Positions 3,665-21,994 of a stretch of 64,000 nt of DNA are shown piece after piece. Within the stretch, counting starts at the first letter, position 1, and each line of letters begins with the position of its first letter. The stretch covers positions 1 to 64,000 of the forward strand of contig JMRP01000003.1 in assembly GCA_000708525.1 (NCBI GenBank), read 5' to 3'. The position numbers were made by a program, and so were the translations under genes. The notes under the pieces were generated by a model. The model was not told where the DNA came from and did not search any database. It saw only the letters and a list, made by a program, of their open reading frames with translations. The DNA comes from Cyanobium sp. CACIAM 14. GTDB lineage: Bacteria; Cyanobacteriota; Cyanobacteriia; PCC-6307; Cyanobiaceae.

Positions 3665-4660
3665 TCAGCGCCCGCTCAGCCATTCCAGGGTTCCGAGGCC
3701 AGGCAGCAACGCCAGCAGCCAGAGCAGCTCGAGGCGATCCCCCAGCACCAGGATCCTCTCCACCCCTGGCACATCGGGGGGGCGGCCGGCGGCGCCCACG
3801 ATCGGTTTGACACGGACGCCCTCGGGGTAGCGGTTGGCGCCCCCCAGTCGGACCCCCGCCGCGTGGGCGAAGGCCGCTTCCGACACCCCGGCGTTGGGGG
3901 AGGCATCGGCGGCGCCATCGCGCAGGGCTGCCAGGAACAGCCGGCGCGTCCGCCCCGGATGTCCCGCCGCCAGGGGCAGCGTGAGGGCCACCAGCCGGGC
4001 CGGCAGCCAGGTGAGCAGATCGTCGAGGCGGGCACCGGCGGTGCCCAGCCAGCGCAGCCGTCCCCGGCGGTAGCCCAGCATCGAATCGAGGGTGCTGGCC
4101 GCCTTGAAGCCCCAGGCCAGGGCCAGGGGGCCGGGCAGCCGGGGATCCAGCTGGTGCATCACCGCCCCCACCGACATCCAGAACAGGGGGGCGAACAGGC
4201 CATCGACGGCGTTCTCGGCCGCGGTTTCGGCGGCGGCCCGCAGGATTTCCTCACGGGGCAGCCTGCTCACCTGGCGGCCCACGATCCAGGCAAGTCGCTC
4301 CCTGGCCTGGGACAGATCGGGCAGAGCCTGCAACACAGCCCGCACCGCCCGGCCCAGGCTGCCGCCCGCCAGGGCGCTGGCCAGGCCGAGCACCAGCAGC
4401 GGGGTTCCCAGGGCGGGGGCGTGCCAGGCCAGCAGTTCGAGGCCCCAGCCGGCCATGCCGCTGGCCCCCACCACCGCGAGGGTGAGGAGCAGGCCGCCCA
4501 GCCGCAGCCGCCAGGGGCTGTCGCCCGCCCAGGCCTCCGCCAGCCGCTGCAGAGCAGCGATGGCCAGGCCCATCACCTGCACCGGGTGGAGACACCAGCG
4601 CGGATCCCCCACCAGCCGGTCAAGGGCGCAGGCGAGCAGCAGGAGCAGGGCGAGGGTCAC
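3665..4660 (-). CDS. cbiB: Adenosylcobinamide-phosphate synthase CbiB/CobD
   Basis: A 331-residue integral membrane enzyme that joins adenosylcobyric acid and the aminopropanol (phosphate) arm in cobalamin synthesis. The N-terminus has the hallmark ALDRLVGDPRWCLHPVQVMG, and AAETAAENAVDGLFAPLFW lies near residue 140-160, followed by FKAASTLDSMLGYR and PNAGVSEAAFAHAAGVRLGG. All are typical of CbiB. Four to five hydrophobic segments are visible. The start is a GTG at 4660, directly before the first membrane helix. It lies 54 bases downstream of ilvC on the same strand, in a run with clpR, clpP and ilvC that I recall from other cyanobacteria. No cobalamin riboswitch fits in the short gap upstream. 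Confidence 0.93.
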   Translation of the reverse strand: MTLALLLLLACALDRLVGDPRWCLHPVQVMGLAIAALQRLAEAWAGDSPWRLRLGGLLLTLAVVGASGMAGWGLELLAWHAPALGTPLLVLGLASALAGGSLGRAVRAVLQALPDLSQARERLAWIVGRQVSRLPREEILRAAAETAAENAVDGLFAPLFWMSVGAVMHQLDPRLPGPLALAWGFKAASTLDSMLGYRRGRLRWLGTAGARLDDLLTWLPARLVALTLPLAAGHPGRTRRLFLAALRDGAADASPNAGVSEAAFAHAAGVRLGGANRYPEGVRVKPIVGAAGRPPDVPGVERILVLGDRLELLWLLALLPGLGTLEWLSGR

Positions 4661-4714
4661 CGGAGGCGGTGCCCCAGGCGAGGGTCGCCAGAGGGCCCCG
4701 CATGGGCGAGAGGC

Positions 4715-5794
<1,080 letters not shown>

Positions 5795-15886: not shown

Positions 15887-16966
15887 ATGCGCTGCCGCCT
15901 GAGCCGCTTCCCCCTCACCAAGGCGGTGCCCCTGGCCATCAGCCGCGGCACCACCGCCAGGGTCGAGCACCTGCTGCTGCAGGTGGAGCACGAGGGCCTC
16001 ACCGGGCTGGGCGAGACCGGCGGTTTCGACACCGGCCACAGGGCCTACGCCACCGGCGACCTGGCGGCCGAACTGGAAGCCCTGCTGCCCCGGCTGGAGG
16101 GCCGTGATCCGGAACCGCTCCAGGCCTTCGAGCCCCTGCTGGAGGACCTCTCGCCCCCGGCCCGTTGCGCCGTGGATCTGGCCCTGCACGACTGGTGGGG
16201 CCGGCGGCTGGGTCAGCCTCTGTGGCGCCTCTGGGGCCTGGATGCCGCTGCGATTCCTCCCACCAGTGTGACCCTCGGCCTGGGCAGGGAAGCGGCGGTG
16301 CTGGCGCGGCTGGAGCGCTGGTGGCGGCAGCTGCCCGCCCGGCGCATCAAACTGAAGCTCGGCAGTCCGGACGGTCCCGACCATGACCGGGCGCTGGTGC
16401 GGGCGGTGGCCGCGGCCCTGGAGAGGCGTCGCCAGGACGACGGGATCGCCTGTGAGCTCCAGGTGGACGCCAACGGCGGCTGGAGCCTGGAGCAGGCCCT
16501 ACCGATGCTGGGCTGGCTGGCGGAGCAGGGGGTGGCCCTGGTGGAGCAGCCCCTGGCTCCCCTGGAGGATCCGGAGGCCGATTGCGCTGCGTTTGCCGCC
16601 TTGGAGCTGGACTGCCCCATTGCCCTGGTGGCGGATGAGAGCTGCTGGAACCTGGCCGATCTGGTGCGTCTCGCGCCCTACGTCGACGGGGTGAACATCA
16701 AGCTGCTCAAGAGCGGCGGATTGACGGAGGCCTTGCTGATGGCCCAGGCGGCCCGCCGCCTGGGGCTGGGAGTGATGCTGGGCTGCTACTCCGACAGCGC
16801 CCTGCTCAATGGCGCCGCCGCCCAGTTGCTCCCCCTGGTGCGCTGGCCGGATCTCGACAGCCACCTGAACCTGGAGGACGATCCCTTCACGGGTCCGATG
16901 CTGGACGCCGACCGGCTGGTGCCGCCGGCGGCACCGGGCCTGGGGGTGAGCCATGCTCGGGGCTGA
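15887..16966 (+). CDS. dgcA: Enolase-superfamily epimerase, DgcA or L-Ala-D/L-Glu epimerase type
   Basis: A 359-residue member of the mandelate racemase/muconate-lactonizing subgroup. The lid domain covers about residues 1-120 and the barrel the rest. Catalytic landmarks: IKLKLG with the KxK acid/base pair, [16 protein letters not shown] and VADES giving the three metal-binding acids, and [10 protein letters not shown]-type motif NIKLLKSGG with the second Lys. This set fits dipeptide epimerases and also N-acetyl-D-glutamate racemase (DgcA). The next gene overlaps by 14 bases and is a DUF1611 protein, the family of DgcN, so DgcA is favoured by context. By sequence alone I cannot separate the two. 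It is divergent from miaB with 79 bases between. Confidence 0.75.
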
Positions 16967-18026
16967 TGTTCCGATCGTGCTGCTGCAGCACCGGGGCCTC
17001 GACAACCTGAGCGGCAAGACGGGCCTGGCGATGTTGCGCTACCGGCCCGGGCCGATCGTGGCCGTGGTCGATCCGGCCCATGCGGGGGCCGACCTGGCGG
17101 CGATCACCGGGATCCAGCGGGCCGTGCCGGTGGTGGGCTCACTGCGGGAGGCGCTGCCCTTCCAACCGGCGGTGGCGGTGGTGGGGCTCGCCCCTTCCGG
17201 GGGCCGGCTGCCGGAGGACATGGCCGGCGACGTGAGCGCCGCCCTCTCGGCCGGGCTGTCGCTGGCGAGCGGGCTGCACAGCCGCCTGGGCGATGACCCC
17301 GGCCTCGCTGCGCTGCTGCGCCCGGGGCGCTGGATCTGGGATCTGCGCCGGGAGCCGTCCGGGCTGAGCGTGGGCGCCGGCCGCGCCGCCGCCCTGCCGG
17401 GCCGGCGTCTGCTGGCCGTTGGGACGGACATGGCGGTGGGCAAGATGAGCGCCTGCCTGGAGCTGCACGCCGCGGCCCGGCGCCGGGGCCTGGATGCCCG
17501 CTTCGTGGGCACTGGCCAGGCCGGCATCCTGATCAGCGGCAGTGGAGTTCCCCTCGATGCCGTGCGGGTGGACTACGCCGCAGGCGCCGTGGAAGGGGCG
17601 GTGCTGGCGGCGGCCGCGGATGCAGGCCCGGCGACGCTCGTGCTGGTGGAGGGGCAGGGGTCCCTCTGCCATCCGGGCTCCAGCGCCACCCTTCCCCTGA
17701 TCCGCGGCAGCCAGCCCACCGGCCTGCTGCTCGTGCACCGCGCCGGCCAGCGCACTATCCAGCGGCTGGAGACGATCCCCCTGCCCCCACTGCGCCAGCT
17801 GATCGACACCCTCGAGGCCCTGGCGGCCCTGGCCCGGCCGGCGGACACGGCCGTGGCAGCGCCCCGGGTGGAGGCGATCGCCCTGAACACGGCCCATCTG
17901 GATGGGGAAGCGGCCAGGGAGGCCCTGGCGGCCACGGCGGCGGAAACGGGTCTCCCCTGCGCCGATCCGGTTCGTCAGGGGGGCGAGGTGCTGCTGCAGG
18001 CGCTCCTGGAGGGTCAGGATCGCTGA
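16953..18026 (+). CDS. dgcN: DUF1611 protein, DgcN-like (D-glutamate N-acetyltransferase candidate)
   Basis: A 357-residue DUF1611 protein. The N-terminal 130 residues form a Rossmann-like domain (YRPGPIVAVVDPAHAG, VAVVGLAPSGGRLP). The C-terminal part has a P-loop-like GTDMAVGKMSACLEL near residue 155-170, then FVGTGQAGILISG, DYAAGAVEGAV and VEGQGSLCHPG, all family marks. DgcN in marine bacteria acetylates D-glutamate; DgcA then converts the product to N-acetyl-L-glutamate. The start overlaps the preceding epimerase by 14 bases, so the pair is likely made together. No regulator of the DgcR type is adjacent. The domain call is firm; the reaction is inferred from the pairing. Confidence 0.75.
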   Translation: MLGADVPIVLLQHRGLDNLSGKTGLAMLRYRPGPIVAVVDPAHAGADLAAITGIQRAVPVVGSLREALPFQPAVAVVGLAPSGGRLPEDMAGDVSAALSAGLSLASGLHSRLGDDPGLAALLRPGRWIWDLRREPSGLSVGAGRAAALPGRRLLAVGTDMAVGKMSACLELHAAARRRGLDARFVGTGQAGILISGSGVPLDAVRVDYAAGAVEGAVLAAAADAGPATLVLVEGQGSLCHPGSSATLPLIRGSQPTGLLLVHRAGQRTIQRLETIPLPPLRQLIDTLEALAALARPADTAVAAPRVEAIALNTAHLDGEAAREALAATAAETGLPCADPVRQGGEVLLQALLEGQDR

Positions 18027-18123: not shown

Positions 18124-18129
18124 CTGAAG

Positions 18130-18203
18130 GGCGAGCGAGGGGACTCGAACCCCCGAATGGTGGCGCCACAAGCCACTGCCTTAACCACTTGGCGACGCCC
18201 GCC
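18130..18203 (-). tRNA. tRNA-His (anticodon GTG)
   Basis: Read on the minus strand, the acceptor GCGGGCG pairs with CGCTCGC, and an extra 5' G (position -1) faces discriminator C73, the identity mark of tRNA-His. The anticodon stem GTGGC/GCCAC holds loop TTGTGGC with anticodon GTG. The T arm contains TTCGAGT. No CCA is encoded. Confidence 0.96.
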
Positions 18204-18275: not shown

Positions 18276-18680
18276 GTGTCCGGATTGCTCGGCCTGACCG
18301 CCGTCGCGGCGGGGGTGATCGGCCTGATCGTGACCAACCCCGGACCGGCCGCCTTCGAGGAGTTCGCTGCCGAGAAGCTCACCGAAGTGGCCACCGAGGA
18401 GCTCTGCCGCAAGGAGGACCTGCCCCTTCTGGCCCGGCTGCTCATCCAGAACTGTCCGCAGCTGGTGCGCTCCCAGCGCAAGGTGCTGGGCCGGCTCGCC
18501 CGGGAGCATTCGCGGCGTTACAACTTCGGCCTGCTGAGCCTCTACGGCACCCGGCTGGGAGGCGAGCAGGTGTTGCCCCACTGGCGGATCCCCCGCTACG
18601 ACGCCCTCACCCTGGGGGTGGCGGGCCAGTTCCTGCTGCTCACCGCCGGCGAGAGCCAGGCCGGGAGTCCGATGCCGTGA
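18276..18680 (+). CDS. DUF4359 family protein
   Basis: A 134-residue protein starting with a hydrophobic helix (SGLLGLTAVAAGVIGLIVTNPGP), which fits either a signal anchor or an uncleaved signal. It is followed by AAFEEFAAEKLTEVATEELC, the DUF4359 hallmark as I recall it from cyanobacteria. The remainder is soluble, with FGLLSLYGTRL near the end and probably located outside the cytoplasm or in the lumen. Function is unknown. Start GTG 18276 is chosen because the in-frame sequence before it runs through tRNA-His. The stop overlaps the next gene by 4 bases, so it is probably coupled to the amidohydrolase. Confidence 0.7.
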   Translation: MSGLLGLTAVAAGVIGLIVTNPGPAAFEEFAAEKLTEVATEELCRKEDLPLLARLLIQNCPQLVRSQRKVLGRLAREHSRRYNFGLLSLYGTRLGGEQVLPHWRIPRYDALTLGVAGQFLLLTAGESQAGSPMP

Positions 18681-19984
18681 GTGCGGCACCGCCCGCATCC
18701 GGCTGGCTGCCGCCGATGCGCCTGCCGCGCTGCCTGCTGGATCCCCGCTGCCGCCTCCCGGCGGCCGACGCGCAGGGGCTGGTGGCCGTGCGACTGGAGC
18801 AGGCCGATGGTCGGATCCGCGCCATCCAGCCCGTGACCGGGGATCCCGGGCCAGAGGGCAACCCCGGCCTGCCCCTGGCGCTCACCCCCCTGGTGGAACC
18901 CCATGCCCACCTGGACAAGGCCTTCAGCGGCGAAGCGTTCCCCAATCCCGACGGCACCATGGCCGCCGCCATGGCCGCGAACCGGCTGGAGGCCGCCTGT
19001 CGCGGTGCGGAGACTGTGCATCGGCGCGGGGAGAGGTCCCTGGAGCGGGCCTGGCGCTACGGGCTGCGGGCGATCCGCAGTCACATCGACAGCCTCGGCC
19101 CCTGGGCCGCTCCCAGCTGGGAGGCCCTGCTGGAGCTCCGCGACCGCTGGCGGGGTCGGGTGGAGCTGCAGCTCGTGGCCCTGGTGCCGGTGGGACACTG
19201 GCGCACGACCGACGGAGAGGCACTCGCCACCTGGGTGGCGGCCCGCGGCGGTCTGCTGGGGGGCGTGCTCGGCGCCCCCTTCCGCTCCACCCCGGAGGAC
19301 CGGGCCGGCCTGCTGGCCCTGCTGCGGCTCGCCGAGCGGCTCGGCTGCGGTGTGGATCTGCATGTCGACGAGAGCGCCGACGACCATGGCCAGGGGGTGG
19401 CGCTGGTGAGCGATCTGCTGCTGGAGCACCGGCCCGGGGTGCCGCTCACCTGCAGCCACGCCAGCAGCATGGGGCTGCTGGCCGAAAGGCCCTGCCGCCG
19501 CCTCGCCGAGGCGATGGCGGCGGCGGGGGTGGGGGTGGTGGCCCTTCCCACCAGCAACCTCTGGCTGCTGGGGAAACGCCACCGCCGCACCCCATCCCTG
19601 CGGCCCCAGGCGCCGATCCGCCAGCTCCAGGAGGCGGGGGTCATGGTGGCCGTGGGGGGCGACAACGTCCAGGACCCCTGGTTTCCGGGAGGGGACTTCG
19701 ACCCCATCGCCCTGCTGCGGTGCAGCCTGACCGCCAGCCACCTGATGCCCTGGCGGCGGCTGGGTCTGAGCCCCTTCAGCACCGCAGCGGCCCAGCTGCT
19801 CGGCCTTGACTGGGACGGGGTGCTGCGGGAGGGTGCCCCCGCCGATCTCCTGGTGCTGGGGGCCTCGTCCTGGGGTGATCTGCTGGCCCGCCCGCCCCGG
19901 CGACGGGTGCTGCGGGCCGGCCGGTGGCTCCCCCCTCCCCCCTGTGAGGAGCCTTCCCCCCTGCTGGCCGCCTGCCATGGATGA
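18677..19984 (+). CDS. Amidohydrolase, cytosine-deaminase-like
   Basis: A 435-residue metal-dependent hydrolase of the amidohydrolase superfamily, nearest by motif to cytosine deaminase and related isopropylammelide hydrolases. Metal and catalytic landmarks in order: EPHAHLDKAF (HxH with the family Lys), RSHIDSL, DLHVDESADDHG, TCSHASSMGLL and VGGDNVQDPW with the terminal Asp. The full set suggests an active enzyme. Substrate is unknown; cyclic amidines or N-heterocycles are typical for the group. The gene overlaps DUF4359 by 4 bases and the next FAD-oxidase gene by 8, so the three are one translation unit. Cytosine deaminase proper would be an alternative. Confidence 0.85.
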   Translation: MSAAPPASGWLPPMRLPRCLLDPRCRLPAADAQGLVAVRLEQADGRIRAIQPVTGDPGPEGNPGLPLALTPLVEPHAHLDKAFSGEAFPNPDGTMAAAMAANRLEAACRGAETVHRRGERSLERAWRYGLRAIRSHIDSLGPWAAPSWEALLELRDRWRGRVELQLVALVPVGHWRTTDGEALATWVAARGGLLGGVLGAPFRSTPEDRAGLLALLRLAERLGCGVDLHVDESADDHGQGVALVSDLLLEHRPGVPLTCSHASSMGLLAERPCRRLAEAMAAAGVGVVALPTSNLWLLGKRHRRTPSLRPQAPIRQLQEAGVMVAVGGDNVQDPWFPGGDFDPIALLRCSLTASHLMPWRRLGLSPFSTAAAQLLGLDWDGVLREGAPADLLVLGASSWGDLLARPPRRRVLRAGRWLPPPPCEEPSPLLAACHG

Positions 19985-21413
19985 CATCCCCGCCAGCACC
20001 CTCACCCCGGCAGGCTTTCCCGTGCTGGTGGATCCTCGACGGATCCAGGCGCTGCTTGCGGAGCTGGAGGCCAGTGAGCCCGAGCTGACGCCGATCCTCT
20101 CGCCCGCCGAACTGAGCCGCCTCTCGGCCGACTTCCACTCCTATTCCCCTGTCCTGGGGCCCCTGCTCAAGGGGAAGCGGGCCCAGGTGGCGGTGAAGGC
20201 CTGCCGCGTCGATCAGGTGCTGGCGGTGGCGGGGGCCTGCGCCCGCCATCGGGTGCCGCTCACCCTGCGGGGTGCCGGCACCGGCAACTACGGGCAGTGC
20301 GTTCCCCTGGCCGGCGGCCTGGTGCTCGATCTGACAGGGCTCGATCGGCTGCGGGAGGTCGATCCGGCCAGCGGCGTGGTGGAGGCCGAGGCGGGCTGTC
20401 TGATGGCCGATCTGGACCGCTTGCTTGAGCCGCATGGCCGCGCCCTGCGGCTGGCCCCGAGCACCTGCCGCACCGCCACCCTGGGGGGATTCGTCGCGGG
20501 AGGTTCCGGTGGTCTCGGATCCCTGCGCTGGGGCTTCCTGCGCGATCCGGGCCACCTGCTGGGGCTCGAGGTGGTCACGGTCGAACCCGTACCCCGGCTG
20601 CTGCGGCTGGAGGCCGCCGCCAGTGCACCCCTCAACCATGCCTATGGCACCAACGGCATCATCACCGCCCTGCGGCTGGCCACCACCGAGGCGGTGGCCT
20701 GGCAGCAGCTGGTGGTGAGCTTCGCCGGCTGGGAAGCGGCCCTGGAGGCGGCCAGGGACCTGCCGACCACGGCTCTGCTGCTCCACGCCCTCTGCCTGCT
20801 GGAGGCTCCGGTGGCGGCCGCCATGCCCTGGCCGGCCGGCTGCCCCGCCGCCGGTCCCGGGGAGCACCGGCTGCTGCTCCACGCCGCCCCCGACACCCTG
20901 GAGGTGCTGCCGCCGTGGCTGGCGGAGAGGGGCGGCAGGATCTGCTGGCGCGGTCCCCAGCCGGAGGGGGGCGGCGGGCGGGCGCTGCCCCTGTGGGAGC
21001 TCACCTGGAACCACACCACCCTGCACTGGCGGGCCCAGCGCCAGGACTGGACCTACCTGCAGCTGCTGCTGCCGCGTCCGGAAGCCCCCCTGCTGGAGGC
21101 CGTGCGCCGGCGCTGGGGGGAGGATGTGCTCTGGCACCTGGAGGGGGTGCGCCATCAGGGAGCGCCGCGCCTGGCGGCCCTGCCCCTGGTGCGATGGCAG
21201 GGGGAGCAGGCTCTCGCCGATCTGACCGATCAGTGCCGCGAGCTCGGGGCGGTGCTGTTCAACCCCCACGTGATCACGGTGGAAGACGGGGGCCTGGGAG
21301 TGGTCGACGCCGACCAGGTGGCGGCCAAGGCCGCCTACGACCCTGCCGGACTGATGAACCCCGGCAAGCTTCGCGGTTGGCCGGGTCGCTCCCGGCAGCC
21401 GCCGGAGTGTTAG
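19977..21413 (+). CDS. FAD-linked oxidase (GlcD/PCMH-type flavoprotein)
   Basis: A 478-residue flavoprotein. The PCMH-type FAD-binding domain occupies about residues 60-230: VAVKACRVDQVLAVAGACARH, then the pyrophosphate-binding PLTLRGAGTGNYGQC, LVLDLTGLDRL and CRTATLGGFVAGGSGGLGS. The C-terminus has AAYDPAGLMNPGKL, shared with GlcD-like oxidases and dehydrogenases. I see no bicovalent Cys/His pair that I can assign. ATG 19977 overlaps the amidohydrolase stop by 8 bases; upstream in-frame sequence is a shadow of that gene. It probably oxidises a hydroxy or amino compound made or released by its neighbour, which is inference. It ends overlapping the convergent pentapeptide gene by 4 bases. Confidence 0.82.
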   Translation: MDDIPASTLTPAGFPVLVDPRRIQALLAELEASEPELTPILSPAELSRLSADFHSYSPVLGPLLKGKRAQVAVKACRVDQVLAVAGACARHRVPLTLRGAGTGNYGQCVPLAGGLVLDLTGLDRLREVDPASGVVEAEAGCLMADLDRLLEPHGRALRLAPSTCRTATLGGFVAGGSGGLGSLRWGFLRDPGHLLGLEVVTVEPVPRLLRLEAAASAPLNHAYGTNGIITALRLATTEAVAWQQLVVSFAGWEAALEAARDLPTTALLLHALCLLEAPVAAAMPWPAGCPAAGPGEHRLLLHAAPDTLEVLPPWLAERGGRICWRGPQPEGGGGRALPLWELTWNHTTLHWRAQRQDWTYLQLLLPRPEAPLLEAVRRRWGEDVLWHLEGVRHQGAPRLAALPLVRWQGEQALADLTDQCRELGAVLFNPHVITVEDGGLGVVDADQVAAKAAYDPAGLMNPGKLRGWPGRSRQPPEC

Positions 21414-21994
21414 GGGCAGTCGAGGCTGAGGCGGGTGTCGGCCCCGGTGACCGGGTTGGTGCCCCGGGCGCTGCGGCAGAGAAGGCGCTGATCGAGCCGA
21501 TCGAGCAGGGCATCGGTGAAGTCGGCATCGGTGACCGTGGCGCCGGTGAAGTCGCTGCCGGAGGCGATCGCCCCGCGCAGCACCGCACCGGTGAGGTCGA
21601 CCCCGCTCATGTCCACCTTGTCCATCAGGGCGTCACTGAGGTCGGCGCCACTGAAGTCGGCCTCGGGGAAGGCCGCCTGGGTGAGGATCGCGCCGTGCAG
21701 GTCGGCACCCCGGAAGCTGGCCTGGCGGCCGGTGGCGCCGGCGAAGGAGCTTCCCGCCAGTCGCTCACCGCTGAAATCCCTGCCGCTCTGGTTGGTGAGG
21801 GTGTAGTCCACCCGATCCTGGTCCTCGGCTCTCGCCGGAGCGGCTGCCACGGCCTGCGGAAGCACGAGCAGGGGCAGCGCCAGCAGCAGCAGGGCGAGCA
21901 GCAGCGGCAGGACCCGGTCCGGGGCCCATGGCCACCGCCACGCACGGGCCCCCGCCGCGGGGCGGGAGGCATCGGATCCTGACGCCGTCGTCAT
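21410..21994 (-). CDS. Pentapeptide-repeat protein with signal or anchor segment
   Basis: A 194-residue protein. Residues 1-28 are polar and basic, and residues 29-52 form a Leu-rich hydrophobic segment ending AVAAAPARAE, a plausible signal peptide cleavage region. From about residue 68 to 165 the A(D/N)Lxx-type pentapeptide pattern runs through: DFSGERLAGSSFAGA, SFRGADLHGAILTQA, DFSGADLSDALMDK and so on, about 17-20 repeats in a right-handed beta helix. Two Cys near the C-terminus may form a disulphide. Such proteins are common in cyanobacterial thylakoid lumen and have no fixed function. Its ATG overlaps the folC stop by 4 bases of coding. Confidence 0.85.
   Translation of the reverse strand: MTTASGSDASRPAAGARAWRWPWAPDRVLPLLLALLLLALPLLVLPQAVAAAPARAEDQDRVDYTLTNQSGRDFSGERLAGSSFAGATGRQASFRGADLHGAILTQAAFPEADFSGADLSDALMDKVDMSGVDLTGAVLRGAIASGSDFTGATVTDADFTDALLDRLDQRLLCRSARGTNPVTGADTRLSLDCP

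Follow-up and report, generated by a model that had tools for sequence, protein, structure and literature searches.

What do three overlapping genes of a Cyanobium genome do, and do all three belong together? The genes lie in the window, the whole 64,000-nucleotide stretch of DNA that was analyzed. A first-pass annotation had read them as a candidate for an undescribed system in which an amidohydrolase and an FAD enzyme act together on a nitrogen-containing compound, with a DUF4359 protein as a possible substrate binder. The features concerned are the following.

18129-18202, minus strand: tRNA-His, just upstream of the DUF4359 gene
18276 (GTG)-18680, plus strand: DUF4359 protein (Pfam PF14271, 1e-22), overlapping the amidohydrolase gene by 4 nt; judged to lie outside the functional core
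18677 (GTG)-19984, plus strand: amidohydrolase of the cytosine-deaminase/PRK07583 group (Pfam Amidohydro_3, 3e-14), probable deaminase of the pair
19977 (ATG)-21413, plus strand: FAD enzyme of the VAO/PCMH fold (Pfam FAD_binding_4, 2.5e-28), a relative of 6v42; called the oxidase below

The open reading frames and the sequence confirmed overlaps of 4 nt between the first two genes (18677-18680) and of 8 nt between the amidohydrolase and oxidase genes (19977-19984). The amidohydrolase keeps its metal ligands (H76/H78, H229, H261, and D329) and the oxidase its FAD motifs, with a GTGNYGQ loop that is near-invariant in its relatives, both as first described. No NtcA site (GTAN8TAC; nitrogen control) was found within the window.

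The amidohydrolase and the oxidase form a conserved unit

The amidohydrolase and the oxidase represent a real, widely conserved unit. A genus-level search covered 60 relatives, including 36 other genomes of the genus. The amidohydrolase was found in all 36 and the oxidase in 34, being missing from G005 (84% complete) and G010. The two genes adjoin each other in 31 genomes of the genus and are on separate contigs in three drafts (G001, G018, and G036). In the window's own picocyanobacterial family, f1, the pair sits between folC and miaB-ddl, and its members are within about 0.6 kb of each other in every listed genome, including the small (1.6-1.7 Mb), diverged ones that we call Prochlorococcus-like. 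They are also close together in other families, e.g., f10, f11, f12, f15, f18, f25, and f28. The order that the first-pass annotation proposed to look for in other cyanobacteria recurs, for the two enzymes, both within the window's family and outside it, in further cyanobacterial families and in Rhizobiales, and this recurrence places the arrangement far beyond chance.

We determined the co-occurrence of the two genes across 242 cyanobacterial genomes. Both are present in 165 and neither in 58, and 19 have only one of them (phi 0.81). The discordant genomes comprise 9 with the oxidase only and 10 with the amidohydrolase only, six of the latter having weak matches that are probably paralogues. 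As the sampled genomes are related to one another, the Fisher values for these counts overstate independence. Better evidence comes from the several separate cyanobacterial families that are devoid of both genes and from family f32, within which their presence varies together.

The DUF4359 gene does not follow this pattern. Its linkage to the pair is confined to the window's family, where it adjoins the amidohydrolase gene in the genus and in the larger genomes, and to one other case, G043. Prochlorococcus-like genomes that have kept the pair lack it, and it occurs in genomes without the pair. We therefore judged DUF4359 to be a neighbor outside the core unit, and the same presence and absence ruled it out as a substrate-binding member. 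Of the earlier proposal, the coupled amidohydrolase and FAD enzyme acting on a nitrogen-containing compound is supported by conservation and co-occurrence, but the trio as such is not.

The oxidase resembles a flavin oxygenase assigned to folate catabolism

By sequence, the solved protein nearest to the oxidase is 6v42 (phmmer 1.1e-81 over 446 residues, 24-469), whose PDB title reads “Crystal structure of the flavin oxygenase with cofactor bound involved in folate catabolism.” An AlphaFold2 model of the oxidase (mean pLDDT 84) superimposed on 6v42 with a Z score of 45.2 and an rmsd of 2.4 over 439 residues, the next chain scoring 31. Alignment of twelve diverse cyanobacterial relatives showed that the RGxxTGNYGQ loop is invariant or nearly so and that the C-terminal motifs WNHTT, HLE, and PH-x4-E are invariant. 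The GlcD glycolate and D-lactate dehydrogenases share the FAD_binding_4 domain and the fold (Z about 31), but the oxidase is far under the cut-off of that family (76.5 against 567.9 bits).

The likeness to 6v42/6v43 extends beyond full-length homology and a common fold to a gene position beside a PRK07583-type amidohydrolase and to a creatininase-family partner in the genome. In contrast, identity between the window oxidase and 6v42 is only about 35%, no ABC transporter, RidA, LysR, or flavodoxin-fold gene lies alongside it, and the creatininase gene is unlinked. Our literature search found no paper on 6v42/6v43 or a folate flavin oxygenase, and none on the cyanobacterial amidohydrolase-oxidase pair. 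The first-pass annotation missed that a close solved relative of the oxidase is filed under folate catabolism, and “undescribed system” is too strong because the rhizobial relative has at least been named in the PDB.

“Cytosine deaminase” is a poor name for the amidohydrolase

The fold of the amidohydrolase matches that of Escherichia coli CodA (Z about 40). With CodA and the Klebsiella 5-methylcytosine deaminase (1k6w and 4r7w), it shares the metal ligands, the catalytic Glu, and the equivalent of Gln156; the acid E232 and Q165 of the window protein are kept as in cytosine deaminase. However, it is only about 26% identical to these enzymes, and in the tree it groups with PRK07583-type enzymes, apart from CodA, with support of 100/100. 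It scored 107 bits against the CodA subfamily, whose cut-off is 483, and the position of CodA Asp314 is occupied by an invariant Asn (N330 in the window protein) in the cyanobacterial and rhizobial rows of the alignment. “Cytosine deaminase” is thus a poor name for this protein.

Its best NCBIfam match was PRK07583, at 261 bits, under the cut-off of 403, which members from other cyanobacteria (631) and from rhizobia (666) exceed. The amidohydrolases of f1 are about 30% identical to the other cyanobacterial ones, and the latter are about 48% identical to those of rhizobia. The pterin deaminase of Agrobacterium, Arad3529, is nearer to the 8-oxoguanine deaminases. The likeness that we propose is one of function: the window amidohydrolase would catalyze a reaction of this type, with a related compound as substrate. 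Arad3529 has an orthologue in Variovorax F1 (PMC9513972).

A creatininase-family enzyme accompanies the oxidase

The creatininase-family proteins of cyanobacteria fall into two groups, subfamily A, which clusters with the rhizobial operon enzymes, and subfamily B, which stands apart and whose rows are only partly covered in the alignment. Scores of the rhizobial protein show the same division, exceeding 100 bits against A and reaching at most 73 against B. Creatininase A keeps the motifs EQHGP, HGG, and ETS of the rhizobial operon enzyme. Subfamily B was rejected as a partner, as it is a separate group and occurs in genomes without the oxidase.

The window's own genome carries a creatininase A gene unlinked to the pair (G000:C1:36974-37711). 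In the 242 genomes, 173 have both the oxidase and creatininase A and 58 have neither, with 11 discordant (phi 0.89). The four oxidase-bearing genomes of f32 are those with creatininase A, and the two genes are within 10 kb of each other in f25 and f27; in f38 creatininase A lies as close to a broken oxidase fragment. The most constant pairing is therefore that of the oxidase with creatininase A, joined by the deaminase in most lineages. Some families keep the oxidase and creatininase A without the amidohydrolase, and all three proteins are present in the 29 sampled genomes of the window's family, where creatininase A is on a long branch.

The oxidase gene is convergent with folC in this family, and creatininase A is a few genes from folE via ado-aar-accA. 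We did not count this nearness to folate genes as support, since the order of the murA-argD-folC and miaB-ddl genes on the flanks belongs to the general synteny of the family.

Two minor observations concern these genes. In the window's family and in f11, creatininase A is directly upstream of an aldehyde-deformylating oxygenase gene (L215, 4643-6245; L217, 838-6017; L216, 5197-10594); in L216 and L217, that oxygenase gene is succeeded by an acyl-ACP-reductase-like gene and accA, with folE a few genes farther along. L173 has an intact amidohydrolase and creatininase A next to an oxidase fragment of 150 aa (4330-4782), apparently because this copy of the unit is decaying.

In many genomes the unit includes an ABC transporter

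In the cyanobacterial loci L071, L075, and L166, the two enzymes form the last genes of an operon encoding an NMT1/THI5-like binding protein, an ABC ATPase, a permease, the amidohydrolase, and the oxidase, in that order, with a TauE-like gene upstream. Many other cyanobacterial families also have a binding protein of this type linked to the amidohydrolase; in f27 and f32 the operon comprises binding protein, ATPase, permease, and oxidase, without the amidohydrolase. When named genomes were scanned with the 6v42 sequence, close relatives (65-87% identical) first turned up in Hoeflea, Mesorhizobium, and Rhizobium. There, the same five genes, from substrate-binding protein to oxidase, are followed by one for a Flavodoxin_2 protein, with a LysR regulator and creatininase-family and RidA-family proteins alongside. 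The ABC transporter is thus part of the unit in many genomes. None of the f1 genomes searched yielded a relative of the binding protein at E <= 1e-50.

The nearest solved relatives of the binding protein include ThiY and THI5, which bind thiamin-pyrimidines, and the matches are weak (E 1e-5 to 1e-8). Binding-protein relatives with other neighbors occur at L161 and L162, in genomes without the pair, and may show what the transporter family binds.

A proposed function in pteridine-ring breakdown

We propose, with a probability of roughly 0.57, that the amidohydrolase and the FAD enzyme catalyze two steps in the breakdown of the pteridine ring of folate-derived or free pterins. The metal-dependent amidohydrolase would remove the exocyclic amino group as ammonia (a conversion of the pterin-to-lumazine type), the flavin enzyme would oxygenate the ring with FAD and O2, and the unlinked creatininase-family amidase of subfamily A would open a ring amide, reactive imines being cleared by RidA-type proteins. 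Rhizobiales and many cyanobacteria would take up the substrate through the operon's NMT1/THI5-type ABC transporter. As no such transporter was found in the picocyanobacterial family, the enzymes there would work on internal pterins, and they would clean up photosensitizing folate and pterin breakdown products and recover nitrogen. We infer the substrate, the order of steps and the physiological role, the substrate mainly from the PDB title of 6v42. Judged from the protein families, the chemistry is most likely the deamination of an aminopyrimidine-type ring by hydrolysis, its oxygenation by a flavin enzyme, and ring-amide hydrolysis. A folate-derived pterin fits all of these as well as that title, and we consider folate or pterin ring catabolism the most likely function. 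Since some genomes combine the oxidase with creatininase A and lack the amidohydrolase, deamination is not needed in every lineage, and the deaminase seems not to be a required first step.

The same enzymes and chemistry might instead serve another cellular N-heterocycle, derived from purines or flavins or some other compound, a possibility that we regard as unlikely yet deserving of some weight. It applies especially to the picocyanobacterial branch, whose enzymes may have changed substrate, since the oxidase is at some distance from 6v42, the amidohydrolase is strongly diverged, and both it and creatininase A are on long branches; the lack of a detected transporter in the family points the same way. 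Nevertheless, all three enzymes retain their catalytic motifs, and the oxidase is still closest to the folate-catabolism enzyme. That same match weighs against a unit for degrading or salvaging a thiamin-pyrimidine-like compound (hydroxymethylpyrimidine or its damaged forms), in which the FAD enzyme would oxidize the hydroxymethyl or aminomethyl arm and the amidohydrolase would deaminate the ring. The pyrimidines bound by ThiY and THI5 lend this explanation some support, as does the closeness of the amidohydrolase to cytosine deaminases, whose substrates are aminopyrimidines. We consider it improbable, as the NMT1 family is broad, the binding-protein matches are weak, and no thiamin gene was recognized among the classified operon genes.

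Most doubtful of all is the reading of the amidohydrolase as an ordinary cytosine or 5-methylcytosine deaminase that salvages nitrogen, with the FAD enzyme as an unrelated neighbor. The CodA-like fold and catalytic residues would suit such an enzyme, and NCBIfam calls the other cyanobacterial and rhizobial members “cytosine deaminase,” but the separation from CodA in the tree, the Asn in place of Asp314, and the low CodA score all argue otherwise, as do the amidohydrolase's co-occurrence with the oxidase and the operon that the two share.

In cyanobacteria, pterin levels are close to those of chlorophyll, and oxidized pterins, which arise from folate photodegradation, act as photosensitizers and generate singlet oxygen (PMC9737128). 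Streamlined phototrophs would therefore have a reason to keep a route for pteridine-ring breakdown. We tentatively extend the proposal to marine picocyanobacteria, including the very reduced Prochlorococcus-like ones: they might run a core three-enzyme pathway (deaminase, flavin oxygenase, and creatininase-type amidase, encoded at two loci) on their own folate and pterin pool, protecting themselves from photosensitizing pterins and recovering nitrogen, and the divergence of the enzymes might be an adaptation to an internal substrate without a transporter. These genes are kept by very abundant, streamlined phototrophs, yet their annotations read “cytosine deaminase,” “FAD-linked oxidase,” and “creatininase.” Joining the three corrects a misleading annotation, gives core genes of so far unassigned role a directly testable function, and suggests a general folate and pterin clean-up route in oxygenic phototrophs, where pterins meet light.

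Neighboring genes

A pentapeptide-repeat gene on the minus strand (21410-21994) overlaps the end of the oxidase gene by 4 nt at its own end. On the other side, at 15887-18026, an enolase-superfamily epimerase and a DUF1611 protein resemble the DgcA/DgcN D-glutamate pair, at scores below the curated cut-offs (157 against 400 and 229 against 480 bits). These two genes are missing from the corresponding place in the Prochlorococcus-like loci.
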